DNA from: Meiothermus luteus
GTDB taxonomy: Bacteria > Deinococcota > Deinococci > Deinococcales > Thermaceae
Assembly (NCBI RefSeq): GCF_003574085.1
Contig: NZ_QWKZ01000006.1
Coordinates: forward strand, 1-45,396
Direction of reading: 5' to 3'
Length of the DNA stretch: 45,396 nt
The notes under the pieces are model-generated. The model saw nothing but the letters and a program-made list of their open reading frames with translations, searched no databases and was not told the origin of the DNA. The position numbers were made by a program, and so were the translations under genes. Shown piece after piece: positions 6,162 through 24,355 of the stretch (its first letter is position 1; every line of letters starts with the position of its first letter).

Positions 6162-6237
6162 TGGTCGTAAGAAACACTAGCAAATATCCCCCGTGGCCAT
6201 TGGCGACGAGCAGTATCTCCTTCCGCCGGAGTGGGAG

Positions 6238-7361: not shown

Positions 7362-7367
7362 GGCCCC

Positions 7368-7397
7368 ATTTTAGCGCGCGTGCTGGACAGGGTTCAA
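7368..7397 (-). promoter_or_regulatory. Predicted promoter of the CRISPR array
   Basis: On the minus strand TTGAAC (7397-7392) and TAAAAT (7373-7368) are separated by 18 nt. This would start transcription at about the first base of the leader-proximal repeat. It is the best sigma-A-like match in the leader. Confidence 0.6.
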
Positions 7398-7908: not shown

Positions 7909-8928
7909 CTACCTCCCCACAAAGGGCGAGTACTCGGGCAGGTCGCCCCGCAGATACCGTGCCAAAAGCCTAGCCTGGATGTGTGGTAAAAGCCCCACCG
8001 GTACGGGTTCCTTGAACAGGGGGTGCTGCACCGTTTCCTGGCGGCGGCCCTGGAAGGCCGTGATCACCACCTTGCGGCCTTCCTCGTTCAGCAGCACCGC
8101 GCCGCCGGGGCGCTCCTCAAAGTGCTTGGGGGAGAGCTGTTTGCGGTTCAGCAGCGAAAGCGCTAGGCGGTCGGCCCACCAGGCCCGGAACTCCTCGAGC
8201 AAGTCCAGCGCCAGGGCATTACGCCCAGGCCGCAGGGCGTGCAGGAAACCCGCCTGAGGGTCGAGGCCCACCCCTTCCAAAGCAGCGGTGCACTGGGTGG
8301 TGAGTAGGGCGTATATGAAACCCAGCAGCGCGTTTACAGGGTCGCGCGGGGGGCGTTTGTTGCGCCCATCAAAGCGGAACTCACCCGAAAGCAAAAGGTC
8401 GCCAAAGGCGGCAAAGTAGGCGCTGGCGGCCTGGCCTTCCAAGCCCCGTACCTCGTCTACCGTGCGGGCCTGGGGCAGCATTCGCAAAGCAGCCTCGTGC
8501 TCGGCCAGCGCGGCGCTCAGGGCCTCGGTTTCGCCCCGCTCGCGTACCGCCCGCTGGAGCACCAGGCGGCTGTTTTTGAGCTTGCTCTCTACAAAGCGCA
8601 GGGCCAGGTACAAAGCGCTCGAGGGGTGGTCAAGCGCACGGTACTGCGCCCGCCGCAGCAACACATTGCCCGAAACCGGCCCCGAAAGCCGCCCCTGAAA
8701 GCGGCCCGACTCCGTGAACCAGGCAACCTCGAGGCCCTCCTCGGCACAGCGGTGAAGCAAAAAAGGCGAGATGAGCACGTTGCCAAACATCACCAATCCG
8801 CCCAAGTGATGCAGGGGCACGTTCCTGAGCGTTACCTCCTCGTGCTGGATGCGCAGGGTGTCGCCCTCGAGGCGCAGATACACCCCTTGGGTCTGCACGT
8901 AGAGGGTGTTCAGAAGCTCGGTGGTCAT
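7909..8928 (-). CDS. cas1: CRISPR integrase Cas1
   Basis: 339 aa spacer integrase. The N-terminal beta domain begins [14 protein letters not shown]. The catalytic helical domain has the expected metal ligands: Glu164 in LEGQ, His230 in GFLHAL and Asp242/Glu245 in ALDLLEEF. I use the ATG at 8928, which overlaps the cas4 stop as ATGA; an upstream in-frame start would run far into cas4 and is not needed. It is followed by cas2 and then the array, the normal adaptation module of type I-C. Confidence 0.98.
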   Translation of the reverse strand: MTTELLNTLYVQTQGVYLRLEGDTLRIQHEEVTLRNVPLHHLGGLVMFGNVLISPFLLHRCAEEGLEVAWFTESGRFQGRLSGPVSGNVLLRRAQYRALDHPSSALYLALRFVESKLKNSRLVLQRAVRERGETEALSAALAEHEAALRMLPQARTVDEVRGLEGQAASAYFAAFGDLLLSGEFRFDGRNKRPPRDPVNALLGFIYALLTTQCTAALEGVGLDPQAGFLHALRPGRNALALDLLEEFRAWWADRLALSLLNRKQLSPKHFEERPGGAVLLNEEGRKVVITAFQGRRQETVQHPLFKEPVPVGLLPHIQARLLARYLRGDLPEYSPFVGR

Positions 8929-9620
8929 GGTTGCTGGGCCTGCCACTCTAGCAGCGCTTGGGGCACGTGGGGCATGCAAACAGAGATGAGCGAGCAGTGC
9001 CGGCAGCGCTCATCGGCGGCAGGTGGGGGCAGGCGGTCTTGCTGCAACAGCTTGCGCAGCGCGCTGATGGTGGCCAGCGTAGCGGCGCGCAGCTCGAGGG
9101 TAAAGCGCACCTCGCGGCGGCGCTGGCTGGTTCTGCTGAAAAGGGCCCCCTCCGGCACGCTCAGGCCAAACATCTCCTCCAGACACAAAGCCTGGGCGCA
9201 AAGCTGCACCTCGGCGGCCTGGCGGGCCAGCTCCTTGGGCCAGCGCCTGCCCACCTTGTACTCCACCGGATAGGGCACCCCCTCTAGGTTACCGGCAAAG
9301 CCGGTATGGCCTACGGCCACCCCCTCCACAAACTCCACCACGTCGGCTCGGCCCACTAGCCCCAGCCGCTCCGACCACAGGGGCAAAGCCCGCTCAATCC
9401 GAACCCCCTCGCGCAACAGCCCTTCGGGGATGTCGGCCTGCTCGTGGGCGCGCGCGCCGCGCAGGGTGTACTCGTTGTCCTCCCACTCGCCTTCCAGCAG
9501 AATCAGCGCGGCCCGGCGGGGGCAGTAGGTGTACTGGGCCAGGGCGCTGATGGGCAGGGGCTCGCCCTCGGCGGGGGCCGTGAGGGCTGTTTGGGGCAGA
9601 AGGCCGTCCAGGTCGTCCAT
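8925..9620 (-). CDS. cas4: Cas4 nuclease with an in-frame palindromic insertion
   Basis: 231 aa RecB-like nuclease that trims prespacers and helps set PAM orientation during adaptation. Fe-S ligands are Cys33 (YTYCPRR) and the C-terminal cluster Cys206, Cys209, Cys215. Nuclease motifs are GRAD (Asp93) and VEYK (Glu120, Lys122). Residues 102-115 ([14 protein letters not shown]) are a 14-aa insertion between those two motifs, encoded by a 42-bp element with a 9-bp duplicated flank. The same element recurs after cas2. The frame is kept, but the insert lies close to the active site, so activity may be altered. The ATG at 9620 has GGGAGG upstream and follows the RelE-effector stop with no gap. Confidence 0.95.
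9276..9326 (-). repeat. Palindromic element inserted in the cas4 reading frame, copy 1
   Basis: CACCCCCTC occurs at 9276-9284 and again at 9318-9326, flanking ACCGGC-AAA-GCCGGT in an imperfect palindrome with outer TAGG/CCTA. The unit is 42 bp, so the frame is preserved. Removing it restores a contiguous [13 protein letters not shown] in Cas4. Confidence 0.8.
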
Positions 9621-10676
9621 CTAACCCTCCCAGGGGGTGAAGTCTTTTTCGTTGTAATCACGCCAATAAAAGCCTTCCCGGCACAGCCGGTCGTACACCG
9701 GGCCGTGGCGGGTGAGGGCGAAGACGTAGAGCCCCCCGTCCTTTTCGGCGTAAAAAACCCGCTCGTCGGTCTTGCCCTTGGGAAAGCCCAGCGCATCGCC
9801 CCCGCCGCTTTTGAGCTCGCTGTTGGCGGCGCGGTTGGGCAGGCGCAGGCGCTGCAAGAGTTTGCGGTAGCGCTCCTGGGCGGTGGGCTCCAGCTTCTGC
9901 CAGGTTTCTAAGGCCTTTGGGGCCAGGTAAATGGGCACGCTTTGGGCTTGCTCGAGCTCGCCCCGGAAAGCCTCGAGGTAGGCGTCTCCCAGAGGGGATA
10001 GCCCCACATACACCTGCCCGTCTAGCTCGAAGTCCTCGAGTAAAACCTGGGCATCTTCCGGCAGCAGCGCGGCCCGGGGGGCTACCTCGGCCTTGGGGCG
10101 AACACCCTCGCCCTCGGTCAGCCAGTCAAAAAAGTCGGCGTACCAGACAAACAGGCTACTATCCCAACCAAAAGGCGAAGGCGGCAAGGTCACGATCTCG
10201 CCAAACTTCTCGTGGATGTAGCAGACCGGCACCTTGAACACCAAGCCCAGGGCGGTGGCGTAGGCAATCTCGGCCTTGAAGCCCCCGGTGGCATTGATGA
10301 TCACCTCTTTTTGCGCCCGCGCGGCCTTGCGTATCTCGCCAGCCAGGGTGCGCACAAAGTTTTTCAGGCCGTAGTCCACAAAGCCCTGGGCCTCGTAGGC
10401 CAGCCCAGGAATGCGAACCCGGCGGCAAGGCACCCCCTGCTGCTGCCAGTACTGCTCCAGAAGCTCCGCCGCCCGCGCTCCCTCGAAGGTATCGCTGTGC
10501 AGCAACACGATTTCGTCGCCCGCTTGCAAAACGCACAAAAGCGAGTTGGTCTCGGCGCTGGCCTTTTTGGGGTCGTGCTTCAGGTACTCTAAAATCTCCC
10601 CGTCCTGCACCAGGCCATCGCGGCGGGCGTTCAAAAGCAGGCTGGTGCCTACGGTAGTGAGGATGACGGTGCTTAT
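9621..10676 (-). CDS. CARF-wHTH-RelE effector (Cami1-like mRNA interferase), apparent ATA start
   Basis: Predicted cyclic-oligoadenylate-activated ribosome-dependent RNase. The CARF domain shows the first strand and TVGTSLL loop (residues 8-14) and the second ligand motif NATGGFKAE (128-136), as in APE2256-type CARFs. A winged-helix-like stretch follows (LPEDAQVLLEDF...VYVGLSPLG). The last 105 residues resemble RelE: IYLAPKALETWQKL, then the strands RVFYAEKDGGLYVFALTRHGPVYDRL. Cami1 (CARF-RelE) is the known precedent. The conserved N terminus is encoded only if translation starts at ATA 10676, which overlaps the preceding stop (ATAA) and follows a perfect GGAGGT. The first standard start is TTG 10634, which would remove the CARF ligand loop. 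An unrelated C-terminal domain is the alternative. Confidence 0.75.
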   Translation of the reverse strand: MSTVILTTVGTSLLLNARRDGLVQDGEILEYLKHDPKKASAETNSLLCVLQAGDEIVLLHSDTFEGARAAELLEQYWQQQGVPCRRVRIPGLAYEAQGFVDYGLKNFVRTLAGEIRKAARAQKEVIINATGGFKAEIAYATALGLVFKVPVCYIHEKFGEIVTLPPSPFGWDSSLFVWYADFFDWLTEGEGVRPKAEVAPRAALLPEDAQVLLEDFELDGQVYVGLSPLGDAYLEAFRGELEQAQSVPIYLAPKALETWQKLEPTAQERYRKLLQRLRLPNRAANSELKSGGGDALGFPKGKTDERVFYAEKDGGLYVFALTRHGPVYDRLCREGFYWRDYNEKDFTPWEG

Positions 10677-11848
10677 AAGACCTCCGGAAGCTCGAGGCCC
10701 ATCTGAGCCACGGTAGTACTAAGCTGTTTTAGTGCATCTCGAACCTTTGCAGTTACGGTTTCAAAGCTGCTGTTATCTGGGGTGAATTCGCCTTCCTCTG
10801 AAGGGAAACCACGCCAGTGCATCATCTGGTCACGCAGTGACTTCAGTTGGTCATAGCTAATTTTCAGTGGCTCGTTTTCTTGTTGCTTCAAGAAGCTATT
10901 TAGTGAGAACTTGCATTCTACAGAATCGGGCCAGATTTTCATGTTAGACTTCCATCGAGCGAAAAGATATATCCACTCTTTTGCAAGCCCAACTGCCTTT
11001 TCGTAATGCTGATGCTGAATGTACCAGTCTATTTGGGCATAGATTGCTTGAAGCTGTTTTTTATCAGGGTCTCCCTTTGTGAAGGCCAGGGGGGTAAGCT
11101 GATTAACGATTTGGTCACCAAGAATTTCCATTGGCCCGTTGAGACGCAAGCGTAATGCTTCCAATGCTTCTATAGCATTTTTGGCCTCATTACCAGCTCT
11201 AACAGGATCGTGGAGTTGCATAGAGAGCGAGAAGTTACTCAGCGGTTGGAAAAAAGTTCCGTAGCTTGAATCTAACCGTGCAAGTTCCGCCAGCTTTTGC
11301 GGATAACCTGTTTCCAGAAAGCGATTGGTAGCACTTGCCCAGTCCAGCATAGTTACGAATGGAGTAAGGTCGAATATCGGCGTGGTACCGTCTGCACCCT
11401 TTGCCTCCTGAGCACCGTATAGCACATGCAGCAGTTTCACTCGCTTCGCAGCCTGCAAAAAAATTATCGCCAGAAAAGCCAACATGCCTAGCGAGCGAAA
11501 ACCGTGTGTTATGTCCAAAATTACTTCCGAGTCAGGTTGCAGGTTATTCGTAAGAGCGTTGTAAATATCCCAAAACTCATCGGCGCTCTTTCCATCCGGT
11601 ATGGAAACCAACTCCTGGTCTCTTCCGCTTAGTACATTTCTAATTCCATCACTGCGTTCTTGTTGGGCTTTTTCTGTAGCAAGAAGCAAAAACTTTGCAT
11701 CGGGAAACCATTTTGCAAACGCTTCTTGTATCAGGGTGGTTTTTACCTGATCCTTATCGCCCCAGCCATACTGGGTCTCTTCGTAGATGTATTTTCTCTC
11801 GTCCTTGTCCCACCGGCCTAATCCAAGGATAGACACAACTACCTTCAT
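10673..11848 (-). CDS. CARF-HEPN RNase, DxTHG-motif Csx1/Csx2-type effector
   Basis: 391 aa. The CARF domain (about residues 1-170) carries the DITHGF motif at 112-117 that defines the DxTHG/TM1812 group. The C-terminal HEPN domain has R338-x4-H343 (RDQMMH), the RNase catalytic motif. Cas10-made cyclic oligoadenylate would bind CARF and switch on collateral RNA cleavage. The ATG at 11848 overlaps the cmr6 stop as ATGA; a GTG two codons upstream is less likely. Base composition is clearly lower in GC than in the flanking cas genes, and the change runs into the 3' part of cmr6. This suggests recent replacement by recombination. Confidence 0.88.
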   Translation of the reverse strand: MKVVVSILGLGRWDKDERKYIYEETQYGWGDKDQVKTTLIQEAFAKWFPDAKFLLLATEKAQQERSDGIRNVLSGRDQELVSIPDGKSADEFWDIYNALTNNLQPDSEVILDITHGFRSLGMLAFLAIIFLQAAKRVKLLHVLYGAQEAKGADGTTPIFDLTPFVTMLDWASATNRFLETGYPQKLAELARLDSSYGTFFQPLSNFSLSMQLHDPVRAGNEAKNAIEALEALRLRLNGPMEILGDQIVNQLTPLAFTKGDPDKKQLQAIYAQIDWYIQHQHYEKAVGLAKEWIYLFARWKSNMKIWPDSVECKFSLNSFLKQQENEPLKISYDQLKSLRDQMMHWRGFPSEEGEFTPDNSSFETVTAKVRDALKQLSTTVAQMGLELPEVL

Positions 11849-12852
11849 TTGCACCCACCTTTTATATCTTTCAGCAGCTTATCGATTAGTTTTGTGTACT
11901 CCTTGTCCTCTTTCCACAAATTTTTTGACACGAGTTGTTGCTTTAGACGCTCGAGTGTAGGTTTCCGTATGCCTGGAGGCACATCCCCGAGCTGCCTGGC
12001 AATCTGAATAGCTTTATTTGCAGAGCCTGAGTTTTGAATTTTTTCAATCTCTGAGGTTAGGCTTTCCAGTAGTTTTGCTGATTCTTCTCTTTCTCGTGCT
12101 TCCTCCTCCGCCGACTTCCCAAACTCGCATGCAAAATACCCATACCCCGCATTGGTCTTTCCTCCCAAGCCCAGGTGCTCCAGCGCCCAGGCCAGCACCT
12201 CGGCAGCCTTGTAGGGCCAGCCCTGGGCGTCTTGGGCGGGGCAGGTGATGGGAAGATAGAACTTCACCCCAGGCCGCACCGAAAGGAAGGCCACTGGGTT
12301 GGGGTCGTCGAAGTCGGTGGGCCAGACCGCGCCCTTTTTGCCGTAGTACTCGGGGTGGTGTACGGTAATCACATCCAGTTGGAAGGGCTGGGCGCTGTTT
12401 GGATCCAACCAGCCGTCCCAGTAGACCAGGTAGGCCGCGTTGCCCGGGGTTTTGCCTTTGGGGTCTGGCCCCTCGCCCAGCAATACGGCTTTTTCCTTTT
12501 CGGACAGGCCAAAGTGCTCGGCGGCCCGGCGCAGTAGCCCCTTGAGGGCGCTGCCCGGCAGGTAGGGCACCCCGTAGGTGTGGTGGATGGCCAGGCCGTT
12601 TTCGATGGGGCTGGCATTCCCTAGGCCAATGGCCAGGGGGGTTTTGGTGGTGGCCTCGAGCCAAACCGCGTCTTTCAGGCTCTCCCGCCAGCGCTCAAAG
12701 GCCTTCTGGTACATCTCGGGCACCTGGCTCTGGGCGATGTGATTCAGCAACTCCTTGGCCGCAGAATGGTCGTCGTCATGCTGCCTCAGGTAGCGCTGCA
12801 AGGCCAGCCCGGCGTGGGCGGGTGGGGGAAGATCAAGTCTACTGGCCCGCAT
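11845..12852 (-). CDS. cmr6: Type III-B RAMP protein Cmr6
   Basis: 335 aa Cas7-like RAMP subunit of the Cmr complex. Family motifs are GLGNASPIENGLAIHHTYG, PYLPGSALKGLLR and the glycine-rich loop GLGGKTNAGYG. In the complex Cmr6 caps the backbone near the crRNA 3' end together with Cmr1. The C-terminal about 90 residues are Lys/Glu rich, helical, and encoded by noticeably AT-richer DNA than the first 240 residues. They extend past the usual RAMP fold. The start overlaps the cmr5 end by 14 bp. Confidence 0.95.
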   Translation of the reverse strand: MRASRLDLPPPAHAGLALQRYLRQHDDDHSAAKELLNHIAQSQVPEMYQKAFERWRESLKDAVWLEATTKTPLAIGLGNASPIENGLAIHHTYGVPYLPGSALKGLLRRAAEHFGLSEKEKAVLLGEGPDPKGKTPGNAAYLVYWDGWLDPNSAQPFQLDVITVHHPEYYGKKGAVWPTDFDDPNPVAFLSVRPGVKFYLPITCPAQDAQGWPYKAAEVLAWALEHLGLGGKTNAGYGYFACEFGKSAEEEAREREESAKLLESLTSEIEKIQNSGSANKAIQIARQLGDVPPGIRKPTLERLKQQLVSKNLWKEDKEYTKLIDKLLKDIKGGCK

Positions 12853-13231
12853 CGCGGCCCCCCGTGTGTACGCCTAGCACGCTGGCGGCGAAGCGCTTGA
12901 AGTAGACCCAGGCCGAAAGCACGCGGCGGGTATGGTGCATGTAGCCGATGGCGTCGGCCCCTTGCACGGTCTCAAGGGCATTTTTAGCTCCCAGGATTGC
13001 CGCCACGTGCTCGAGCAGCTTCTGATGCGCCCTAGCCCGGTGGCCCTCTCCCGAGGCCTTGTCAGCGCTAAACGCCAACGCCTGGCACAGCCCGCTCTGC
13101 CGCACCAGGATGGGGAAGTTGTGGCAGAGGCCGCCGTAGATGTTCTTGACCTCGGCATCTTCGTTCTCGAGGCTCCGCACGAGCTCGAGGGCCTTTTTCA
13201 TATCCTGCTGAGCACGGGTCACAAGGCTCAT
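12839..13231 (-). CDS. cmr5: Type III-B small subunit Cmr5
   Basis: 130 aa all-helical protein, the size and position expected for Cmr5. The N terminus MSLVTRAQQDMKKALELV and the central GLCHNFPILVRQSGLCQALAF stretch are typical of the family. Cmr5 forms the minor filament of the Cmr complex and contacts the target RNA. It overlaps cmr4 by an ATGA and cmr6 by 14 bp, so the Cmr subunits are tightly coupled. Confidence 0.93.
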   Translation of the reverse strand: MSLVTRAQQDMKKALELVRSLENEDAEVKNIYGGLCHNFPILVRQSGLCQALAFSADKASGEGHRARAHQKLLEHVAAILGAKNALETVQGADAIGYMHHTRRVLSAWVYFKRFAASVLGVHTGGRDAGQ

Positions 13232-14022
13232 GCTCCACCCCCCAGCCGCCGCAACAAGCCCCGCCCCACGCTGGCCTGCCCGCCGAGCTGGAGGTAGGGC
13301 CGGTTGAGTTCCTCAAAGCCGCTTGTGCCGATGGCGAAGCTCGAGAACACGGTCTCCGCCGGGATGGCCTCCTCGTACCAAAGCCCGCCCCTAACCACGG
13401 TTTTGGAATCCGAATCCAGCTTGACCCGGGCAATAATCTCCATGCCCATCTCGCAGAAATAGCTGAACACATCGTTGGAAACCAGAGCGAAGCGGGACTG
13501 GAAGTAGCTGACCTCGTCCCCAAAGACCAGGCGGCCCAGCTCTTCGGCCAGGTTGTTGGCCGCATCCGGCTTGGCGGTGAGGTCGATATCCTCGAGGATG
13601 ACCTGATTGTTGTGGACAATCTGGGAGTTCTGCGGAAGTAGGGCAGTGTTCTGCTCTGGCGTGGGAAAGGGCGATTGCAAGCCAAAGAGCCCCAGGGCCT
13701 TTAGGTCGCGATTAAGGCGTTCCAGCACCAGCGGACACGTAATAAAGGCAAAGGTGCCCGCATACGAGCGCACCGGCAGGAAGAGCACCCGGGCATCGGT
13801 GAGGGTAAGCTCGGCAGCGTTTTCCAGCGAGCCAAAGACCTTGTTGGCTTCTTGATCCTCGCGCCCATCGCGTAGCACCCCCTTCAGGCTGCTGGCCGGA
13901 ATCACCGGGAAGCCCGTAGCCGCCTCGCGGGCTACCGGAAGGTCAATCACGCTGCTAGAGTCCTGCCCCGTGCCCGGGTGCACGGGTGTAAGGGCCTGCC
14001 AGAAAATCAGTTTTGCTTGCAT
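13228..14022 (-). CDS. cmr4: Type III-B backbone subunit Cmr4
   Basis: 264 aa Cas7-family RAMP. The N terminus FWQALTPVHPGTGQ and the motif PVIPASSLKGVLRD are diagnostic of Cmr4. Repeated Cmr4 subunits hold the crRNA and cut target RNA at 6-nt intervals. The conserved Asp expected in the thumb/loop region for RNA cleavage is probably in the SVIDLPVAREAATG stretch near residue 30. I start at ATG 14022; a GTG six codons upstream is possible. The cmr3 end overlaps by 16 bp. Confidence 0.96.
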   Translation of the reverse strand: MQAKLIFWQALTPVHPGTGQDSSSVIDLPVAREAATGFPVIPASSLKGVLRDGREDQEANKVFGSLENAAELTLTDARVLFLPVRSYAGTFAFITCPLVLERLNRDLKALGLFGLQSPFPTPEQNTALLPQNSQIVHNNQVILEDIDLTAKPDAANNLAEELGRLVFGDEVSYFQSRFALVSNDVFSYFCEMGMEIIARVKLDSDSKTVVRGGLWYEEAIPAETVFSSFAIGTSGFEELNRPYLQLGGQASVGRGLLRRLGGGA

Positions 14023-15155
14023 GGTTGCCACACCCCCCACAGTGCAAGGCCAAAGCCGTCCTTGCGGTCTTGTTCGTTGTCGCTTACGGGCCTAAGCCAG
14101 CTTTTCAAAAGGTCGGCGGGGTTGCCGTCCTCTACCTCGAAAAAGTACACGCTGCCCGCCGGCACCATCCAGCGCACCGCCTTGGGCCGGTTTTCCCGCA
14201 GATTCCAGCCGCTCACCGGCTCGCGCCGCCCCACGGCTGCGGACACCAGCTTTAGCTTCACCTTGCTCAGGCCGCGGGGCAGGTGAAGCTCGCCCGAGCC
14301 CGACTTCTCAATCCAGCCGGGTTTCCAGCCGCCTTCGAACAGGGCCGGAGTAGCCAGCACCAGCCGCACCCTGGCGCCCTTGCCTAAACTGGCAAATCGC
14401 TTCTTGATGGATTCTGGGCAGTCGAACCAGTAATCCGATAGGCTCTCCTTCACCTCCACCGCCACCGGACGCCGCTCGCCCCCCAGGTGGCCAATGGGGG
14501 CCGGTGTTTCACCGTTGGGCAACGAAAGGCGCACCCGCAGGCTGGCAGGCCGGTAGTCCTCGGGGCTTTTGCCCATCTCCAAGGGCCGATAGGCCACGCT
14601 AAAGAGTTGCCCTTCCCGGGCCTTGCCCTTTTGCGGGTCCATGGCCACGTGCACCCGGGTCTCGGTGGGGAGGCCCTGGATTTTTTCGGGCTCGAGGGTC
14701 TCTCCCAAAAGCCAGCGCTCCATGTCCCGCGTCGTCCAAAAGTTGTAGCCGCTCTCAGGCTTGATGTCTTGGGTGACCTCGAGGGGCAATATTCCTTCCG
14801 GTAGGTCGCAGCCCGCGCCCTCGGGCGGGGTGCAGGGCTGGAGCTTCATCACCCGTAGCTTATCGCCATCCTTGTAAATCACCGCGTCCCGCGGGGCCGG
14901 CAGCAGAACCTCGTTTCCTCTGGCTAAAAGAGGCCCACAAATCTGTAGCCCATGAAGGTTCTTAAGCTGCTCGTGGCCAAAACCCTTGCCCGTGGCCAGG
15001 CCAATCTGGGTACGCACAAAGCCGGCCAGGGTGCTGGGCAGGGGCAAGGGCAGGCTGCGGGCAGCGGTCTCGCTGCCGTCGGCGGCGCTGAAGGGCCGGC
15101 CATCGCGGAAGAGCAGGGGGCTCAGGGCGTGGATTTCAAGCACCCGTTCCGGCAT
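14007..15155 (-). CDS. cmr3: Type III-B Cas5-family subunit Cmr3
   Basis: 382 aa. The Cmr3 hallmark PLLFRDGRPF is at residues 13-22, followed by LPLPLPSTLAGFVRTQIG. A glycine-rich C-terminal motif (RKDGFGLALWGVW) fits the RAMP fold. Cmr3 is the Cas5-like subunit that, with Cas10, grips the 8-nt 5' tag of the crRNA. GGAGGAAG lies before the ATG at 15155, which overlaps the cas10 end by 20 bp. Confidence 0.96.
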   Translation of the reverse strand: MPERVLEIHALSPLLFRDGRPFSAADGSETAARSLPLPLPSTLAGFVRTQIGLATGKGFGHEQLKNLHGLQICGPLLARGNEVLLPAPRDAVIYKDGDKLRVMKLQPCTPPEGAGCDLPEGILPLEVTQDIKPESGYNFWTTRDMERWLLGETLEPEKIQGLPTETRVHVAMDPQKGKAREGQLFSVAYRPLEMGKSPEDYRPASLRVRLSLPNGETPAPIGHLGGERRPVAVEVKESLSDYWFDCPESIKKRFASLGKGARVRLVLATPALFEGGWKPGWIEKSGSGELHLPRGLSKVKLKLVSAAVGRREPVSGWNLRENRPKAVRWMVPAGSVYFFEVEDGNPADLLKSWLRPVSDNEQDRKDGFGLALWGVWQPCKQN

Positions 15156-16611
15156 GGGCTTCCTCCTTTATGCCGCTCAGGAAGCGGGCGATGATGAGCT
15201 GCTCCACAAAGGTCAGCAGTTGTTTGCGGTAGGTAGGCGTGTCGCTGGTGGGGGCGGGGATTTTCAGGTCGCGGGCTTCCTTGCGGGCCAAGACCCGTTG
15301 GGCCTCCTTGTAGAGGTAGTCGGCCCGCATGTCGTCTTGCCACTCCTGCACCAGCTTGTGTAGCTCGTGGGCTAGGCCGCGGGTAATCTTGCGGTTTTGG
15401 TAGGCCTCGAGGAGTTCGTTCCAAGATAGCTTGTCCCAGCGCTGCACGGTGACGATAGGTGCGCCGCCCCGGGTATGCAGGGCTACGGCCAGGGCATTCC
15501 GGCCCCCGTTCTTGGCGGCTTTTTCAGCTTCCCGCGCATTTTCCAAGGAGATAGAAAGCGGTTCCCGATAGTGCACAATGGCTATTCCCGCAGAGAGGGT
15601 TCCCTTCACCTGGTGCCGGAACGCTTCGGAAAGCTCTTTGGCGCACGCCACCGCCTGGTTCACCGGCAAAAAGGCCAATACATCATCGCCGCCGGAGTAG
15701 ACCATAAAGCCGCGGTACTTGGGGACAATTTTCCGGGCCTCTTGGGCAAACTCGTCTAGGCTTTTGGAAAGCCGGCGGTGGGCCTCGGGGTCGTCCTGGC
15801 GGCTGATTAGCTCACCCATGCGGTCGCCATCGGCTACCAGGATGGCCAAGTAGGGCTGGGGCTCTGGGATGCGGTCTTCTTCCTCATAGCGCTCATCAGG
15901 CTCCGCTTCCGGTTTCCAGGAGCGCCTGGCCATGGTACGGGTGTCCACCACCTTGGCCGACTTCAGCGCGCCGTAGCAGCGCTTGAGCAGCGAGATGGCG
16001 TCCAGGTATTCGGTGGGCTTGATGCGCAAGGGCCGATACGTACCATCCTCCAGCCGGATGTTGGCCTCGCCCCAGTCGCGCGGGTCTATGACGGCAGCTC
16101 GAGCGGGGTCTAGGGGCGACTTGGGCACGCCCTCGTCCCCCTGATTTGTGGGGCCAAAGTCGCGTAGCGCCTTGCGCCCGGCCAACAGGCGCTCCACCGC
16201 CAGGCGGGCCTCGGGGTAGCTGCCCCTTAGGGGAACCCAGGCGGCATAGAACTCGAGAAAGTGGTCTAGCTGCTCTTTGGCCCGGTCTTGGTCTATCTGG
16301 TTCTGGTACGCCTGGGGAAGCTTGCCGATGGTGTCTTTCCAGAGCTGCTCGAGCTTCTTTTGAACCGCCTTTTTCGCGCCTTCGGCCAACCCCTTGGGGT
16401 CGCCCTCTACCTGGGCCAGAATCTTGTTGGCCCCGTCGGCGTCCTGGTCTGCGGGAAAAATGAGCTTGGCGTCATTAGAGTGCAGATACCGCGCGGCTTC
16501 CTTGCTAAGCTCCTGCAAAATCTGCGAACCCGCATACAGGTCGGCGGTGCGGCGGGCGGCGGCGATGAAGTCCTGCACCGGGCCGATGGAGATGGAGAGG
16601 AGGTGGGTCAT
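15136..16611 (-). CDS. cmr2: Cas10/Cmr2, cyclase-type, without HD nuclease domain
   Basis: 491 aa large subunit of the Cmr complex. It begins directly with the first palm (ISIGPVQDFIAAARRTADLYAGS), which in longer Cmr2 proteins comes only after about 200 residues. The HD DNase domain is therefore absent. Palm motifs are DGDRMGE near residues 261-267 and the cyclase motif GGDD at 307-310, both intact. It should make cyclic oligoadenylate when target RNA is bound, feeding the two CARF effectors encoded downstream. A linker rich in Glu/Asp/Arg (about 235-250) precedes the second palm. Confidence 0.97.
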   Translation of the reverse strand: MTHLLSISIGPVQDFIAAARRTADLYAGSQILQELSKEAARYLHSNDAKLIFPADQDADGANKILAQVEGDPKGLAEGAKKAVQKKLEQLWKDTIGKLPQAYQNQIDQDRAKEQLDHFLEFYAAWVPLRGSYPEARLAVERLLAGRKALRDFGPTNQGDEGVPKSPLDPARAAVIDPRDWGEANIRLEDGTYRPLRIKPTEYLDAISLLKRCYGALKSAKVVDTRTMARRSWKPEAEPDERYEEEDRIPEPQPYLAILVADGDRMGELISRQDDPEAHRRLSKSLDEFAQEARKIVPKYRGFMVYSGGDDVLAFLPVNQAVACAKELSEAFRHQVKGTLSAGIAIVHYREPLSISLENAREAEKAAKNGGRNALAVALHTRGGAPIVTVQRWDKLSWNELLEAYQNRKITRGLAHELHKLVQEWQDDMRADYLYKEAQRVLARKEARDLKIPAPTSDTPTYRKQLLTFVEQLIIARFLSGIKEEAHAGTGA

Positions 16612-16613
16612 GG

Positions 16614-17993
16614 TTACACCTGCCTGTAACCTTTTGATTTCACAAACTCCACTAAAGCTTCTCGGATGGACTTAGAGCCAAACTGTTTGAGTGGGAGTAC
16701 CTTCTCCCTCTCTTGAGGAGAAAGATTGACGAGTTCCTCTGTTACCCGCTGCCCATGCTCTTCAAACCTCAGCGTCAGCTTGCCCGCTTGCCAAACATGA
16801 GGAGAATCAAGAAGAACTATTGCAGGCAGATAGCCTTCCTCGGTTTTTATTGCTTTTGTGATAACTGGAGAGGCAAACCGAGAACCCAACTCATGTTCTG
16901 ACTCTGAGGAAGGTGTGTAGTTGGACTCCAGAACAAAGTTCTCATCTTCAGGGCCCTCTTCCTGAAAGTGAAAAACAATGGGCAGTCCCAGATCGGCCCT
17001 AGGAAAGCCCCTTGCTGGGTGCTCTGGCTTATGCTTCCAGCCCATATCCGGAAACCATTCGCGAATAGTATCCGGCTCTGGCCACCTCGACCGACCGAGT
17101 TTTGCAGGGTTCTTTGGATCCGAGCCCGGGTTTCTAGCAAAAGCCTTGCCTTGTCGGAACTCCTTATACGTTTCCACCGCATCTTTCCACGCCTTGACGG
17201 CCTTACCTTTTGGTTTGCCTACAAGGCACACTATTGGTGCCTTTGTAAGAAGGCTATTTTCACGCTGGGCCACTACATCCTCAATATGCAAAGACCCTTC
17301 TATTAGCTCGAGGCTCCCGCAGCCCCTCCTGGTGCGCGCACCTATTCCTCCAAATCGCACCCACATCGCTACAGCTAGTTCAACATCGTGCTTAACCTCG
17401 TTCGGAAATAAGAGGCAGAGGGTAAACCTTACGCTCCCTTCCTTGAAACAGTTGGATGGCGGTTCAATAATGGTGATCTCCCGAGTTTTCTTATCCCTTT
17501 TCGCCTTTCCTTGAAATCTGTCTTGGCCCTTTCTCAGCTTTCCCGCAACCTGGCGAGTTTTCTTATCCCTTTTCGCCTTTCCTTGAAATGGGAACAACGC
17601 ATACCCGGGGTAATCACTGAAATATGGGTACGTCTTTAGTTCTGTTCCTCCATCTTTGCGTCGGTGGTAGTAAGTGCAGCACGGGATTGGGTCTGAAGCA
17701 GCTACTTCCAGTATCCTTATGCAAACCTTGCCAGGCACGTTATCGCTCCCCCAAATCGCCTCCTCCGCCTTGAAAAGCTCTTCCGCAGATGTGTACTGCG
17801 CCCCCGCCGTAGCCCGCCACCAAAACCGCAGATGCCCCCGCACGCTCGCCGCCCGCACCGGGTTGGCGGGGTCTACCTCGCGGGGGGTGGCGCTGCCGCC
17901 GAACATGGGGGTAATGGTTTTGAGCTTCAGCGTCCAGGTGGTCAGCTCGGGCTTTTTTAGCTCCGGCGGCGGGTGAGGAACCGTCCTAGGCAT
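16614..17993 (-). CDS. cmr1: Type III-B RAMP protein Cmr1
   Basis: 459 aa Cmr1, which binds the crRNA 3' region. N-terminal family motifs are [12 protein letters not shown] and [19 protein letters not shown]; later [14 protein letters not shown] is the glycine-rich loop. The ATG at 17993 overlaps the cas7c stop by 8 bp; a TTG further upstream is less likely. Two 36-bp identical segments 72 bp apart encode [12 protein letters not shown] twice (around residues 135-175), a recent tandem duplication. From about base 17780 to the 3' end the DNA is AT-richer than its surroundings, while the first 70 codons match the GC-rich cas7c. The gene is probably a recombinant. Confidence 0.95.
17482..17589 (-). 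repeat. In-frame tandem duplication inside cmr1
   Basis: The 36 bases at 17482-17517 are repeated exactly at 17554-17589, a period of 72 bp (24 codons). The duplicated peptide is [12 protein letters not shown], strongly basic. Confidence 0.85.
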
Positions 17994-18984
17994 GGGCCCC
18001 TCCCATCCAGGCGTCAAACCGGGCCTCGTCCCAGGTGTCCATTTCCAGCATCCGCACCCCTTTGGGTAGCCGGGCCGGGTCGGCCTTTACCTCGTAGTCG
18101 GCAAAGCGGCGGGGGGGCTTCCTCTCGTCCAGGAGCCGCGCCGAGACCACCTCGCCAAGGTCCAGCAGGCGGTGCGCGGGGGCGCAGCCCAGCATGGCCT
18201 GGCGCTTGTTCTGTTCAGCGTTATTGGGGTCGGTGCCCACGTGCTGGAAGAGGTAGAGCCTTCGGGTGGCCATATGCCCCTTGCTGGCGCTGCGGTCGTG
18301 CTCAAACATGTTCAAAAGGGCCTCCACCAATAGCTTCAGGTCGGCCTCGCTGAAGCCGGTGCCCTGGGCCAGGTGGGCGCTGATGAAGCCCTTGGCTAAG
18401 TAGAGGCCGTAGGGCACCTGGCTCTTGCGGCCCATGGTGCGGAGCTTGTCCTCGGGCTGTTCTTTTTCCCACTTCAGGTAGTCTTCCAGGGTCTTGGCGT
18501 TCTTGACGTCCTCGGCCACCGCCCCCCGGGTGATGCTGAACTCGGCGGGGAAGATGGGGTCTAGGCTTCTGGCAAAGGTAAGCTGCACCGGCCCCCGCAC
18601 CTGGCCGGCGTTGGCCCCGGTGCTCATCACCGCGCCAAAGGTGCGCACATCGAAGAAGTTCTGGCACATCCAACGGCGGGCGGCTTCCACCTTGTCCTTG
18701 GTCTTGGTGCCGGTAAAGCCCCCGGTGCGCTCGTGGGCCTCGAAGATGGGCCGGTTGAGGTTGATGCCGTGCTGCACAAAGATGGCGAAGCCAGGCACCC
18801 CCTGGCGGGCCGCCTGAACATAGTTGCGAATACGGCGCTTTAAGGCCACATCGCTCACCAGGCCGTGGCCGTCCTCGGGGTCAATGCGCGGGGCGTTGCC
18901 CGAGTCGGGGTCGCCGTTGGGGTTGCCATCTTGAACATCAAAGAAAAGCAGGAACTCGTAGCGGTTTTGGATGGGCTGGGACAT
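17986..18984 (-). CDS. cas7c: Type I-C Cascade backbone Cas7c (Csd2)
   Basis: 332 aa. The start [23 protein letters not shown] and the internal [14 protein letters not shown]...[18 protein letters not shown] are diagnostic of Csd2. Six or seven copies coat the crRNA in I-C Cascade. A good AGGAG lies upstream of the ATG at 18984. In a standard I-C operon cas4 would follow directly. Here cmr1 starts within the last codons of cas7c, and cas4 is found 8.4 kb further on. Confidence 0.97.
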
Positions 18985-19004
18985 GGGGTATCTCCTTTCG
19001 GGCC

Positions 19005-20855
19005 TTAGGCGGTTTCGGGGCCGGATGGTTTGTCGTCCTTCTTAACGCGGCTGGCCGCGAGCTGCTGGTAGTAGCCCAGGGCAAAAAGGCTCTGCTCCTC
19101 CAGGCTCAGGGTGCGGGGCAGGGTGGGGCCCAGGACCTTCCAGACCTCAGCGAGCTGGGTGTGGAACCAGTAGGCCAGGCCGGGGGAGTCCTTGACCAGC
19201 TTGCTCAGGTGGTGCTGAGAGAGCCGCGTGAGGCGGCTCAGCACCATGGCCGGGGTGCTGCTGGCCGCGCCGTAGTAGCGCTGCACCACGCCGGCGTTGA
19301 TATCGGATTCGGCGGAGGCCTCCTGAATCTGGGCCAGCAGGCACATCAAGCGGCCACAGTGGTAGGCCGGGCTGGGGTGGTTGGGGTCTAGCGCCATCCC
19401 TATCGTTCCTCCTTTGCGGATGTGGTAAGCCTTCAGAAGCCCCATGCGGGCGTAGATGCGCCCCAGGGCGGCGGCGTCGGCTTTTTGTGCGCTGAGGGCC
19501 TCGCTAAAGGCCCCGGTCATCACCTCGGCGATGTGGGACTCCATGATGCGGGCAAGGGCCCCATAGGGAATGGGTAGGCTGGGGTTCAAGGCCGCGCGCC
19601 AGAGGGGGACTTGCAGGGTCTTGATGGGTTTGAGGTAGTCGTCGAAGTTTTGCTCGGGGGTCTTGGGGCGTTGAAGGCTCAGGAAAAGGCGGTTCAGGCC
19701 CGGCAGGCCAGCGGCCCGGTCGCCGCTTTTGCGCACGATGGCCAGGTGCTCAAACCAGGTCTTCACGGCGTTAATGAACTCTTCCAGCGAACCCGTCTGC
19801 CAGTCGCGCACCATCACCCGCCCTGAGGCCGGGCTCAGGGCTGCGGCGAAAAAGCGGGCGCCCTGCAGGCTGGGGGGGGCCTCGCCGGTTTTGAGGGCCT
19901 GGAGCACCTTGCGGGCGCGCTCCAAGGCCTGCAGTTCCTCAACCTCACCGCTGCTGGGGGCGAAGAGGTCGCGGAAGAAGTCGTCCTCCTCGGGGATGGC
20001 CCGGTCGTACCAGACCACCACCTTCATCTCGCCCAGGGTCTGGGCCCCTTCCAAAAGGGCGTCTAGCCCGGCCCGGTAGGCGGTGGCGGCTTCCTCCTCC
20101 ACCGCGGCGTTTTCACCCTGGGAAAGGCCATAAGACTCAAAGGCTTCCTTGTCGTAGGTGACCAGGGCGTGCCCGAAGGCACCGCCGCCCAGCTTGGTCA
20201 CCTTGGGGTGGGTGGAAGCGGGGGAAACCAGCTTCCCGGTGGCAAACGAGCGCATCCTGCCGCTGGCGCTCGAGGTCGGGAAAGCTTGGGCGCGAAACTG
20301 CCGCCACCAGTCGTGCCAGTCGGGGAAGTCCAGCACGCACTTCTCCTGCACGAAAAAGGAGATTTTGTCGGTGGGCTTGAGTTTGTCCGAGCCCTTTTGC
20401 TGAGTCTGGGCCTCGAGCTTCTTGGCAAACCCTGCCATCTGCGCCGGGTCGGAGAGGGCCTGGGCGATGGGCGAGAGCAAAGGCACCTCTTTTGCGGCAA
20501 GCTCAACCAGCAACCGGAAGGTCTGCTGCTTTTGCAGGTTCTTGGCATGCTCCTTGGGGTTTTTGATGTTTCCTTCCCTATCCCGCTCGGCCATCCCAAA
20601 CACCACTGCACAGGTATCGGCCAGGAAGTGGGCGGCCTGCTCGGCGGGGTACCCCTGGGCCCGTAGGTAGCCGGGCATGGCGATCATCTCGGGCTGGGAG
20701 AGGTCGGGGGCCGGTCTGGCCTGACCTAGGGGAATCAACTCGGTAAACTGCCCGCCCGCGCTCACCCCCACCAGCCAGCGAATTTCCTTTTGGGTAAAGC
20801 CGGGCTCCGTGCCCAGGCCCTTCTGCCGGGCGTACTCCACCAGCGGCGTAAGCAT
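19005..20855 (-). CDS. cas8c: Type I-C large subunit Cas8c (Csd1)
   Basis: 616 aa, the usual Csd1 size. The N terminus [14 protein letters not shown] and the [22 protein letters not shown] region are typical, as is the C-terminal helical part with [13 protein letters not shown]. Cas8c recognises the PAM and supplies an internal small-subunit-like fragment in I-C Cascade. The start overlaps the cas5c stop as TGATG. There is a 20-bp gap to cas7c. Confidence 0.96.
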
Positions 20856-21601
20856 CAGCCCACCCCCTTCCGCACCCGCTCGCTTTCGTAGGGGGGCACC
20901 TCGAGCACCCCCTCCACCACCTCGGCCTCAAAGAGGCTCACGCTGGGCTTCTCGCCCTTGTCGGGGCGCAACGGGGCCCCCGGCCTAGAAAGGTCAAAGA
21001 CGTCGTAGAGCATCCAGCCGATTTTTTCGCTGTAGGGCACGGGCTTGGCCTCCTCGCCCGGCTCCACCAGCCGGAAATACCCGCTAAACTCGCGGCAGCC
21101 CAAATAGGGCTGGTAGATGCACTGCCCGGATCGAGCCCGGCGCTCAAAGCTGTGTTCGATCTTCTGGCGCAGGGCATAATCTTCGCGGTAGAGCACCGCG
21201 TGGGCGGTCAGGCGGTAGCGCACGTCCTTGAGGGCCATGGTCTGGCGTTGGGTGCGGCCCTTAGTGTCCTGGCCGGTGTCGTCCTTGGTGGCATCGGCAA
21301 AAAGGGGCTCAAAGGTGCTGGGGTCCCTCATCCAGCTCTGGACGCTGCGCACACTCACCTTTTCCTTCACCTCGTTGCGCATCAGGGCGATGTAGCGCAC
21401 CGGACGCAGCACCTCAATGCGCTCAATCTGCCAGTACATGAGGGGTTTTTTGCTTTGGGGGTCAAAGTCTAGGTAGATGGCGTCGAAGATGCCCCGGGCG
21501 GCGCTGGGGGTGATGATGGGGTAGCTGAAGCGCTCCACCTTGAACTCGGGCCGGGTAAAGCAGGCCAGCTCGCCCCAAACTTCCAGGCGAAAACGTCGCA
21601 T
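20855..21601 (-). CDS. cas5c: Cas5c (Cas5d) crRNA-processing endonuclease
   Basis: 248 aa RAMP. The N terminus [38 protein letters not shown] is the Cas5d signature (with the catalytic-region Tyr/Lys area near KVERFSY). In type I-C, which lacks Cas6, Cas5c cuts the repeat at the 3' base of its stem and stays bound to the 11-nt handle. No cas6 is seen in this locus, so Cas5c is the likely source of crRNAs for the Cmr complex too. GGAGGTGCC precedes the ATG. Confidence 0.96.
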
Positions 21602-21652
21602 GGCACCTCCTTTTCTGGCCTCAGCAAATCCAATCGCCGAAGAACCGCTGGC

Positions 21653-24196
21653 TTATAGGACCAGTCCTGAGCCACCCCCTTCCTCCGGCGTGAAGCCCAG
21701 TCTTGAATCGTAGAGAGCCTCGTCCGGACACAGGTACCAGTCCGGGGCCTCACCCCGCCCGTAGCGCAGAAAGACGCTCTCGAGGAAAGCAGGGGGTCCT
21801 CCTTTGGGCAGGAAGAAGGGCACGGTGTAGGGCCTAGCGCGGTGAACCCAGTCGGCGGCGATGCCCCGGTCGCGCGCCTCCTGCATGAGCGCTTTGGCCT
21901 CGTCGTTGTAGGGCACCACCACGTTCACCGCGGGCGACTCGATGATGCGGTAGCGGCGGGCGAGCTCGGCGTAGTTTTGGGTCAGGATGCAGCGTTCAAT
22001 CTCCGGGTCGCTCACGGCCTGCAGGCTGTAGAGGCTTTGGTAGTAGCGGCGGAAGGTGGCGGGGGTGAGCTCGAGCGGCCCCTCGGCCTGCAAGGCCCGG
22101 GTGAGCTTGGCGGCCTTTTCGTAGGCTTTATCGGGGTACCCCTCGTCTTCGGGCAGGAAGACCACCAGCCGCCCCTCCTTGTGCAGGCCATGCCGGTTGA
22201 CCCGGCCTGCGGTCTGGGCGATGGCCTCCAGGGGCCCCAAGGCCCGGTAGCCCAGGGGAAAGTCCAGCTCCACCCCGGCCTCCACCACCTGGGTGGCAAT
22301 CAGGCGGCAGGGTGCCCCCGCGTCAAGCCGGGCCTGCACCTCCCCCAGCACCTGTAGCCGGTGGGCCGGGCACAGCGCGGTGGAGAGGTGGTAAAGCCCC
22401 TCTAAGCTCCGCGCCTCGGCCAGGCGGAAGAGGGTGTGGGCCTGCCGCTTGAGGTTGAGCACCACCAGGGCCTGGGGGTCGGCTGCCAACAGGGCCGCCA
22501 GGTGCGACCAGGGCAACGGGCTTTTGAGCCACCAGTCCACCCCCACCCGCCGGCTCTGCTGGAAGAGCACCTCGGGCTCGGGGGCCATCTCCACCGGCCG
22601 CCAACCCTGAGGCTCACCCTGACGCACCTTCTCGTCCAGCACCTCAAAGGCGGGCTGGGTGGCGGTGGCGAAGACCACCACCGCGCCGTACTTCTCGCTG
22701 GCCAGGTGAGAGAGGGTCTTGAGGGTGGGCACGGCCAGGTGGGTGGGCAGGGTCTGCACCTCATCGAACAAAAGCACGCTCCCGGCCAGGTTGTGCAGCT
22801 TGCGGCAGGCCCCGGGGCGGCTCGCGTGCAGGCTTTCCAGAAGCTGCACATGGGTGGTGAGAACGATGGGGGCCTCCCAGTTCTCGCTTAGGAGGCGGCG
22901 CTCACGCTCTTGCAGGTCTTGCTCGTCGGAGGGCTCCTGACCCAGGGGTCGGTAGGCCAGGCTGTGGTCCTCCAGGATGTAGTGGGGGCCAAAGTCTGAG
23001 AACAGCGAGCGGTAGATTTTAGCGGTCTGGTCAAGGATGGAAAGGTACGGGAGCACCACCACGATGCGCCGAATGCGGGGGTCGCGCAGGGCCCGGCGCA
23101 GGGCGAAGCGGAGCATGGCCAGGGTCTTGCCCAGGCCCGTAGGGGCGGTGAGGGTAAAGAGTCGTCCGGAGTGCTTGGAGGCCTCTGCGGCTGCGTCGGA
23201 CAGGGCCTTGCGCAGGGCCCGGGTCTTGGCGGGAATCCGCTCGTCCTGGCCCAAGGCCTCCAGGTACGCCTCCAGGCGGGCCAAAGCCTGGCCCACCTGC
23301 AGCAAAGGTGGGGTGGGGCGGTGGTCCTGACCCCGCAGGTGGGCCTCGGTGTCCAAAAAGTCGGCATCCACCAGGGCTGAGAAGAGCATCCGGGTATCCA
23401 GCATGGCTGCGGCACTGCTGGGGGCCTCTATAGGGGCCTCGCTGGGGGGGGGCAGCTCGAGGCCGTCTTCCTGAAGGCGGCGCTTGAGCAGGTCTAAGTC
23501 TAGTTCGCTAAGCCGCAGCTCCTCTGGAAAACCCCGTCCATCCGAACGCAGCCACATGCCCTTGAGGCTCTCCTTAGCCCCGCTTTGCAACCCCAGGTGG
23601 TGGCCCTGCACGGCCAAAGCCACCGCCGGGGCGCGATACTCAAAGAGCGCCACATGCGCCCCTGCCGACCAGTGGTCCAGGCCGGAAAGCTTACCCTGCA
23701 GCCGGAGCTGGAACCGGTCGCCGTACTTACCCAGATCATGCAGCAGACCGGCCAGGTGGGCGCTTCCCTCCTCGCCGAAGGGCTGGGCCTTGGCCGCGGC
23801 AAGGGCGGCCACCTGGGCCAGGTGCGCCCTCAAAGGCTGCCAGCGGGAAGGGTCGGGGTGAGAGTGGCCCCAGAATGTAAAGGGGCTGGGTATCACGGAC
23901 GTTGAGGCGTAGCGCTCAACTATCGTCCTGGCCTCTTCCAACCAGGCCCGCCGCAAAGCCAAAGGCTCCAGCACCTCCACCCGCGCGCCCCAGCTCAGTA
24001 TCCAGGAGAGCAGCTCGAGGGGGAATCCGAAGGGATGGTTGCCGGGGTCTAGTTCAATTTCAACGAGAGTGTGGCCACCCTCGAGCTGCTCCAACAGGCG
24101 CAGGTTGGGATAGGCGTTTTCCAGACGGTGCCTTGCCACCTCGGGAGCAAAGCGCAGCCGCGCATGAACCACATAGTTTGGAAGCTCCCTTCGCAT
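21653..24196 (-). CDS. cas3: Cas3 helicase-nuclease with an N-terminal WCX-like domain
   Basis: 847 aa. From about residue 108 (FWGHSHPDPSRWQPLRAHL) it is a normal I-C Cas3. The HD nuclease shows AGLLHDLGKYGDRF near 150, Walker A TAPTGLGKT near 350, the DEAH-like box LLFDEVQTLP near 475 and motif VI QTAGRVNRHG near 660. It unwinds and degrades DNA marked by Cascade. Residues 10-100 are extra: VHARLRFAPEVARHRLEN, a beta pair with VEIELDPGNHPF, LLSWILSWGARVEVLEPLALR. This matches the C-terminal (WCX) domain of WYL regulators. The ATG at 24196 has an in-frame stop five codons upstream and no Shine-Dalgarno; a -10-like TAAAGT lies 14 bp before it. A GTG at codon 102 could give the bare Cas3 but lacks a ribosome site. 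Confidence 0.95.
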   Translation of the reverse strand: MRRELPNYVVHARLRFAPEVARHRLENAYPNLRLLEQLEGGHTLVEIELDPGNHPFGFPLELLSWILSWGARVEVLEPLALRRAWLEEARTIVERYASTSVIPSPFTFWGHSHPDPSRWQPLRAHLAQVAALAAAKAQPFGEEGSAHLAGLLHDLGKYGDRFQLRLQGKLSGLDHWSAGAHVALFEYRAPAVALAVQGHHLGLQSGAKESLKGMWLRSDGRGFPEELRLSELDLDLLKRRLQEDGLELPPPSEAPIEAPSSAAAMLDTRMLFSALVDADFLDTEAHLRGQDHRPTPPLLQVGQALARLEAYLEALGQDERIPAKTRALRKALSDAAAEASKHSGRLFTLTAPTGLGKTLAMLRFALRRALRDPRIRRIVVVLPYLSILDQTAKIYRSLFSDFGPHYILEDHSLAYRPLGQEPSDEQDLQERERRLLSENWEAPIVLTTHVQLLESLHASRPGACRKLHNLAGSVLLFDEVQTLPTHLAVPTLKTLSHLASEKYGAVVVFATATQPAFEVLDEKVRQGEPQGWRPVEMAPEPEVLFQQSRRVGVDWWLKSPLPWSHLAALLAADPQALVVLNLKRQAHTLFRLAEARSLEGLYHLSTALCPAHRLQVLGEVQARLDAGAPCRLIATQVVEAGVELDFPLGYRALGPLEAIAQTAGRVNRHGLHKEGRLVVFLPEDEGYPDKAYEKAAKLTRALQAEGPLELTPATFRRYYQSLYSLQAVSDPEIERCILTQNYAELARRYRIIESPAVNVVVPYNDEAKALMQEARDRGIAADWVHRARPYTVPFFLPKGGPPAFLESVFLRYGRGEAPDWYLCPDEALYDSRLGFTPEEGGGSGLVL

Positions 24197-24210: not shown

Positions 24211-24216
24211 ACTTTA
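24211..24216 (-). promoter_or_regulatory. Candidate -10 box of the cas operon
   Basis: TGCTAAAGT (extended -10 form, hexamer TAAAGT at 24216-24211) ends 14 bp before the cas3 ATG. This would give a leader of about 8 nt. A convincing -35 at 16-18 bp is not visible, and no perfect CRP site was found upstream. Confidence 0.4.
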
Positions 24217-24312
24217 GCAGTCCCAGGTCTACAGGTCATCCAAATCTGCACATTCCAAACGGACATATTCATAAACTTTAGTCTCCTACGCGCAACTTCG
24301 GCGCTCCTCAAC

Positions 24313-24334
24313 AAAAAAGCCGCCCGACGGCGGC
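24313..24334 (-). terminator. Rho-independent terminator of lysS
   Basis: On the minus strand GCCGCC-GTCG-GGCGGC (24334-24319) is followed by TTTTTT (24318-24313). It lies 22 bp beyond the lysS stop and separates lysS from the cas operon. Confidence 0.85.
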
Positions 24335-24355
24335 CGGCTCACCTGAGACCTAGGC

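Follow-up and report, generated by a model that had tools for sequence, protein, structure and literature searches.

The type I-C Cas3 protein encoded in a stretch of 45,396 nucleotides of Meiothermus luteus DNA (called the window for simplicity) begins with a WCX domain, the C-terminal domain of WYL-family regulators. Sequence comparisons identify this protein as a reduced descendant of a fusion between Cas3 and a complete wHTH-WYL-WCX regulator, whose gene has lost wHTH and WYL but retains promoter, start codon and WCX. The retained domain is, by codon comparisons, still under purifying selection and probably still does something. Fusion of a WYL protein to Cas3 as such is already known and is mentioned in one sentence of the main text of Makarova et al., 2014 (PMC4012209). 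The preliminary description of this DNA, which knew of no described WCX-Cas3 fusion, thus overlooked the WYL-Cas3 fusions, and holds for the WCX-only form: a literature search that covered few subscription journals and the main text of PMC4012209 turned up no description of a Cas3 with WCX only, of the repeated origin of this form or of the promoter repeat. The same search yielded no functional study of WYL-Cas3 fusions.

Architecture of the Cas3 protein

The cas3 open reading frame (21653-24196, minus strand) is uninterrupted from the ATG at 24196 and encodes 847 amino acids, which are divided as follows:

24173-24196, minus strand: start codon ATG (24196, aligned in three species) and variable residues 1-8 in front of WCX, not conserved
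23906-24172, minus strand: WCX domain, residues 9-97 (Pfam PF25583, 46.1 bits; AlphaFold topology; purifying selection)
23876-23905, minus strand: flexible linker between WCX and Cas3, residues 98-107 (pLDDT below 50 at 98-103)
21653-23875, minus strand: type I-C Cas3 body with HD nuclease, helicase and C-terminal part, residues 108-847 and stop codon (motifs; NCBIfam and Pfam; folds 8zns and 8g9u)

Residues 1-112 matched the Pfam WCX model PF25583 above its cut-off of 23.9 bits (E 6.6e-12) over profile positions 2-75 of 76, and a separate 332-residue WYL regulator of the same genome has a WCX domain 49% identical to that of the Cas3 protein over 85 residues (E 1.4e-19). The WCX-like N terminus proposed from the sequence alone is hereby borne out; its suggested extent of roughly 105 residues fits the N-terminal extension, which is real, but exceeds the WCX domain proper. 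The Pfam profile search of the window Cas3 returned no WYL match, and a PDB sequence search with the WCX part alone gave nothing beyond weak chance matches.

An AlphaFold model, proposed beforehand as a check of the N-terminal residues, was computed from a 60-sequence alignment (mean pLDDT 89.3) and predicts the strands and helices of a WCX domain (strands 10-16, 32-37, 43-49 and 73-77; helices 18-21, 60-67 and 79-97). Their order matches the ferredoxin-like topology with an extra C-terminal helix described for PafBC (PMC6789036), as judged from secondary structure against that description. The last helix ends directly at the short linker, whose residues 98-103 are predicted with low confidence, and the HD domain of Cas3 follows.

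The Cas3 part starts near residue 108 (FWGHSHPDPSRWQPL), at the place originally claimed, and contains the motifs HDLGK (153), GHH (198), Walker A (350), DEVQ (478) and QTAGRVNR (661). It passes the model TIGR01596 with 63.6 bits (cut-off 43.45) and falls below the cut-off of the general Cas3 helicase model TIGR01587 (86.7 versus 102.45 bits); since one full-length relative also scores slightly below this cut-off (99.0), the shortfall looks like a limit of the model. The nearest solved structures, the type I-C Cas3 proteins 8zns and 8g9u, align only from residues 106-111 of the window Cas3 onward. They resemble it in the HD nuclease, the helicase and the operon with cas5c, cas8c and cas7, but have no WCX in front. 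Both were also the best matches in a PDB fold search with the whole model, in which the listed matches were Cas3 and other helicases; such matches are expected from the larger Cas3 part and are therefore uninformative on WCX.

Full fusions and their reduction in Thermaceae

A search for the same fusion in other Thermaceae revealed 16 genomes in which the whole wHTH-WYL-WCX regulator is joined in frame to Cas3, giving a protein of about 1080 amino acids, and four with a WCX-only Cas3, namely the window, the Meiothermus MAG SKYB64 (L008), L009 and Meiothermus granaticius (L011). The full fusions are co-linear with the window protein in WCX and highly similar to it in Cas3, except for the divergent L039. 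Their WYL domain was matched with 36.5 bits in L039 and with 21.4 bits in L089, marginally below the cut-off of 21.8. On plasmid pMESIL01 of Allomeiothermus silvanus the full fusion is annotated as a single 3255-nt CDS under the name Cas3 only; WP_013159711.1 is a full-length fusion of A. silvanus. These proteins fit the WYL-Cas3 fusions mentioned in the main text of PMC4012209, in that a WYL-family regulator part sits on an HD-helicase Cas3; the window Cas3 differs by having WCX only, without wHTH and WYL. The domain order of the full-length relatives is also identical to that of PafBC, CapW and BrxR, with which the window protein shares the WCX domain; these are transcription factors, whereas in the window WCX precedes a nuclease-helicase and lacks wHTH and WYL.

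The co-linear alignment and the nesting of reduced proteins in the Cas3 tree both argue for descent from a WYL-Cas3 fusion. A first tree included the very divergent L039 and was rerun without it. M. granaticius sits inside a clade with 100/100 support that also contains two full-length relatives, from which it follows that reduction to WCX happened at least twice by this phylogeny, in the window clade and independently in M. granaticius. The window, L008 and L009 all have two inserted residues in WCX, lysS as the next gene upstream and an ATG that aligns, which points to a single loss event in this clade; L009 is not resolved as sister of the window and L008 in the Cas3 tree. The Cas3 tree alone cannot separate loss from gain of wHTH-WYL. 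We infer loss because wHTH-WYL-WCX is the normal form of the regulator and separate full-length regulators adjoin cas3 in relatives. All four reduced genes begin just after a promoter region alignable with that of the full-length genes, and the alignments are most simply read as the result of an internal deletion that removed about 230 codons in frame. An assembly artefact as the source of the short form is out, as it occurs in four genomes with different upstream DNA.

The WCX domain is absent from a Thermus Cas3 (L025) that is 75% identical to the window protein over residues 103-842, and all other type I-C Cas3 proteins examined also begin without it. The Thermus cas3 gene (L025 1492-4500, genome G023) starts right after a CRISPR array of at least 10 repeats and looks as if its front end had been lost via recombination at the array. 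In L039 (1951-5190, G003:C5) the regulator part is nearly the same as that of L021 (genome G004) but sits on a much more divergent Cas3, an arrangement that is, on sequence grounds, a module swap at the WCX/HD junction.

Separate WYL genes are found next to cas3 as well. Within type I-E loci, Thermus, Meiothermus and their relatives usually have such a gene a few bases ahead of cas3, often in frame with it and with its TAG beside a ribosome-site-like sequence; another family has two type I-C-like loci (L069, L070) with a WYL gene that overlaps cas3 in a different frame. Across the phylum, such touching genes in operons of types I-E and I-C represent the pre-fusion state. We considered programmed stop readthrough of the type I-E WYL-TAG-Cas3 arrangement, in frame in many genomes, and rejected it in favor of ordinary neighbouring genes, since an ATG follows the stop within a few bases and a ribosome-site-like GGTGGG lies beside it, since the stop is TAA or TGA at other loci, and since at some the two genes are not in frame. 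Among the best 80 matches in about 85,000 species genomes, a scan covering Cas3 sequences close to the window Cas3 only, fusions occurred only in Thermaceae, and a few others had separate WYL/WCX genes near cas3. In the history that these comparisons show, a wHTH-WYL-WCX regulator gene directly upstream of cas3 was joined in frame to the type I-C Cas3 of Meiothermus and related genera; at least two lineages then shed wHTH and WYL, sparing promoter, start codon and WCX.

All four reduced genomes also encode a separate WYL regulator, in the M. luteus genome by an ORF near 3611-4600 of G000:C165. Many genomes with the full fusion do too, and a second regulator as the cause of the losses is thus non-discriminating. 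The M. luteus genome contains a further WYL regulator (L003 776-2472, G000:C221) directly before and overlapping a gene that we take, from its translation, to encode an SbcD/Mre11-like nuclease, another WYL-nuclease neighbourhood.

Promoter region and operon

The cas3 gene is the first of an operon with cas5c, cas8c and cas7. The elements upstream of it and the downstream genes are:

24318-24335, minus strand: terminator-like hairpin after lysS, separating lysS from the cas operon
24226-24243, minus strand: remnant of the direct repeat TGGAYGAnnnnTGGAYG (here TTGGATGACCTGTAGACC), candidate operator (promoter alignments; single match in its own genome)
24211-24216, minus strand: putative -10-like hexamer TAAAGT (TANNNT), 14 nt before the ATG (aligned in relatives)
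20855-21601, minus strand: cas5c (TIGR01876, 124.4 bits)
19005-20855, minus strand: cas8c (TIGR01863, 253.9 bits)
17986-18984, minus strand: cas7 (csd2) (TIGR02589, 321.2 bits)

The hairpin after lysS fits a cas operon with its own promoter. The direct repeat, with a step of 11 nt, lies upstream of many full fusions (L012, L014-L019, L022 and L024), with variants in others, and the window clade retains TTGGATGACCnGTAGA of it. It was not seen upstream of the WCX-less Thermus cas3 (L025). Genome-wide the repeat is not over-represented, the bare pattern is no rarity in these genomes and the exact pattern is less common than a reversed control, so that only position and conservation of the repeat count. 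From these, we infer a candidate operator of the WYL regulator. The repeat also precedes separate type I-E WYL genes (L038 and L040; imperfect in L037 and in L068 of the same genome as the window), and its occurrence before both type I-E and I-C regulator genes raises the possibility of a common operator for two CRISPR systems of one cell.

The region 7909-24196 of the window contains the type I-C genes, a complete type III-B (cmr) module, two CARF-type genes, cas4 and cas1 in one direction with the WCX-cas3 gene first, and one promoter may serve two interference systems. The gene order from cas3 to cas10 on pMESIL01 is that of the window. A CRISPR array with 16 repeats of about 37 nt at 71-74 nt spacing lies at 6237-7381, and a perfect 36-nt direct repeat with a 72-nt step at 17482-17589, inside cmr1, duplicates a basic stretch.

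Selection on WCX and its proposed role

Ratios of dN/dS were determined according to Nei-Gojobori with codon bootstrap (limits in parentheses). For WCX they were 0.21 (0.10-0.42) between the window and L008, 0.28 (0.15-0.47) between the window and L009 and 0.27 (0.16-0.42) between L008 and L009, somewhat above the values for HD (0.12-0.13) and helicase (0.13-0.18) in the same clade. M. granaticius compared with its full-length sister L013 gave 0.16 (0.04-0.42), on a path that is partly pre-loss, and four bootstrapped full-length pairs gave 0.16-0.27. Three separate late losses in the window clade would place part of the divergence before the loss; the features common to its members favor one early event. 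WCX positions 23, 27, 28, 67 and 71 are invariant in the full-length proteins and changed in the window clade while core residues are kept, and our guess is that they formed the surface that formerly faced WYL. All four reduced proteins have an intact FPLELLxWxxSWGxRVEVLEP motif. Purifying selection after the loss of wHTH-WYL argues that WCX is translated and no free relic, and that it probably retains a function.

In our analysis, the role that WCX most likely still plays on Cas3 is protein contact. This is proposed because PafBC has WCX as its dimer module (PMC6789036) and because WCX touches the other protomer in CapW (PMC9122588). Of the functions suggested in the preliminary description, tethering is still a possible one. 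In the full fusion, wHTH-WYL would most likely control the cas operon from the direct repeat that shortly precedes its own start codon, and it may read single-stranded DNA like other WYL proteins. In the reduced Cas3 only the protein-contact job would be left, and WCX would act as a flexible dimerisation or docking module that lets Cas3 pair either with a second Cas3 or with the separate WYL regulator belonging to the co-resident type I-E system. The joint explanation, that is, this history together with a WCX flexibly tethered to Cas3 as a dimerisation or docking module, has in our view about an even chance of being right. The highly similar Thermus Cas3 lacking WCX bears against a general need for the domain.

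WCX might instead merely stabilise or cap the HD domain in a thermophile, with neither partner nor sensing. The constraint on WCX after wHTH-WYL loss and its last helix, which runs directly into the short linker to HD, agree with this, but the low-confidence linker 98-103 suggests, by its pLDDT, no rigid packing, and neither the Thermus relative nor any other type I-C Cas3 protein examined starts with WCX, so that we regard such a cap as possible but unlikely. A bolder form of the docking idea, for which we hold out only a slim hope, takes WCX alone as a portable handle: the regulator was fused whole, its DNA-binding and sensor parts were repeatedly shed, and a WYL regulator in trans would hold or recruit the nuclease.

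The WCX of the reduced protein could also still help to hold nucleic acid, for example single-stranded DNA unwound by Cas3. WYL binds single-stranded DNA in PafBC and DriD, and in PafBC the DNA tunnel lies between WYL and WCX, where changing three aromatic residues lowered binding (PMC11804915). WYL-bearing Pif1 helicases of thermophiles likewise join a helicase to a WYL-family-derived domain, which in Thermotoga elfii Pif1 is crucial for helicase activity; there, however, WYL itself is present, at the C terminus, and WCX is not mentioned (PMC9964779). The main ligands of single-stranded DNA in PafBC are WYL arginines (PMC11804915) and the window Cas3 has no WYL, which makes this role decidedly unlikely.

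The preliminary description had suggested the relic of a regulator without HTH and WYL, which is right for descent, given the full fusion in 16 Thermaceae genomes, but not for function. A slowly decaying relic, kept only since start codon and promoter precede WCX, would account for the slightly higher dN/dS of WCX in the window clade and for the altered, formerly invariant positions; we consider it very doubtful, as the upper limits stay below 0.5, WCX evolves at an equal rate in full-length pairs and the core motif is intact.

That WCX is untranslated and the protein begins at an internal GTG, which is codon 101 and not 102 as first described, is extremely improbable: unfused type I-C Cas3 proteins do begin near this point, but the GTG has no Shine-Dalgarno-like sequence before it and is unconserved (P or S in the two closest relatives), the WCX frame is under purifying selection and the aligned ATG follows the -10-like hexamer. 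Short or absent leaders are common in Deinococcota. In full-length genes a GTG near the WCX/Cas3 boundary is common (GTA in L026, TTG in L012) and has no evident ribosome site; an internal start yielding a WCX-Cas3 isoform is not supported by these sequences.

The Thermaceae family displays all stages, from separate touching genes through full fusion and two independent WCX reductions to complete absence, and in one case this regulator part sits on a very different Cas3. That WCX was retained repeatedly leads to a clear, testable claim on its role without a WYL partner. If WCX is a docking handle, CRISPR interference would be physically joined to a transcription factor from the cell's second CRISPR type. 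Should the promoter repeat prove to be the operator, the full fusion would be a CRISPR nuclease in control of its own operon, and target destruction would be directly coupled to immune-gene expression.
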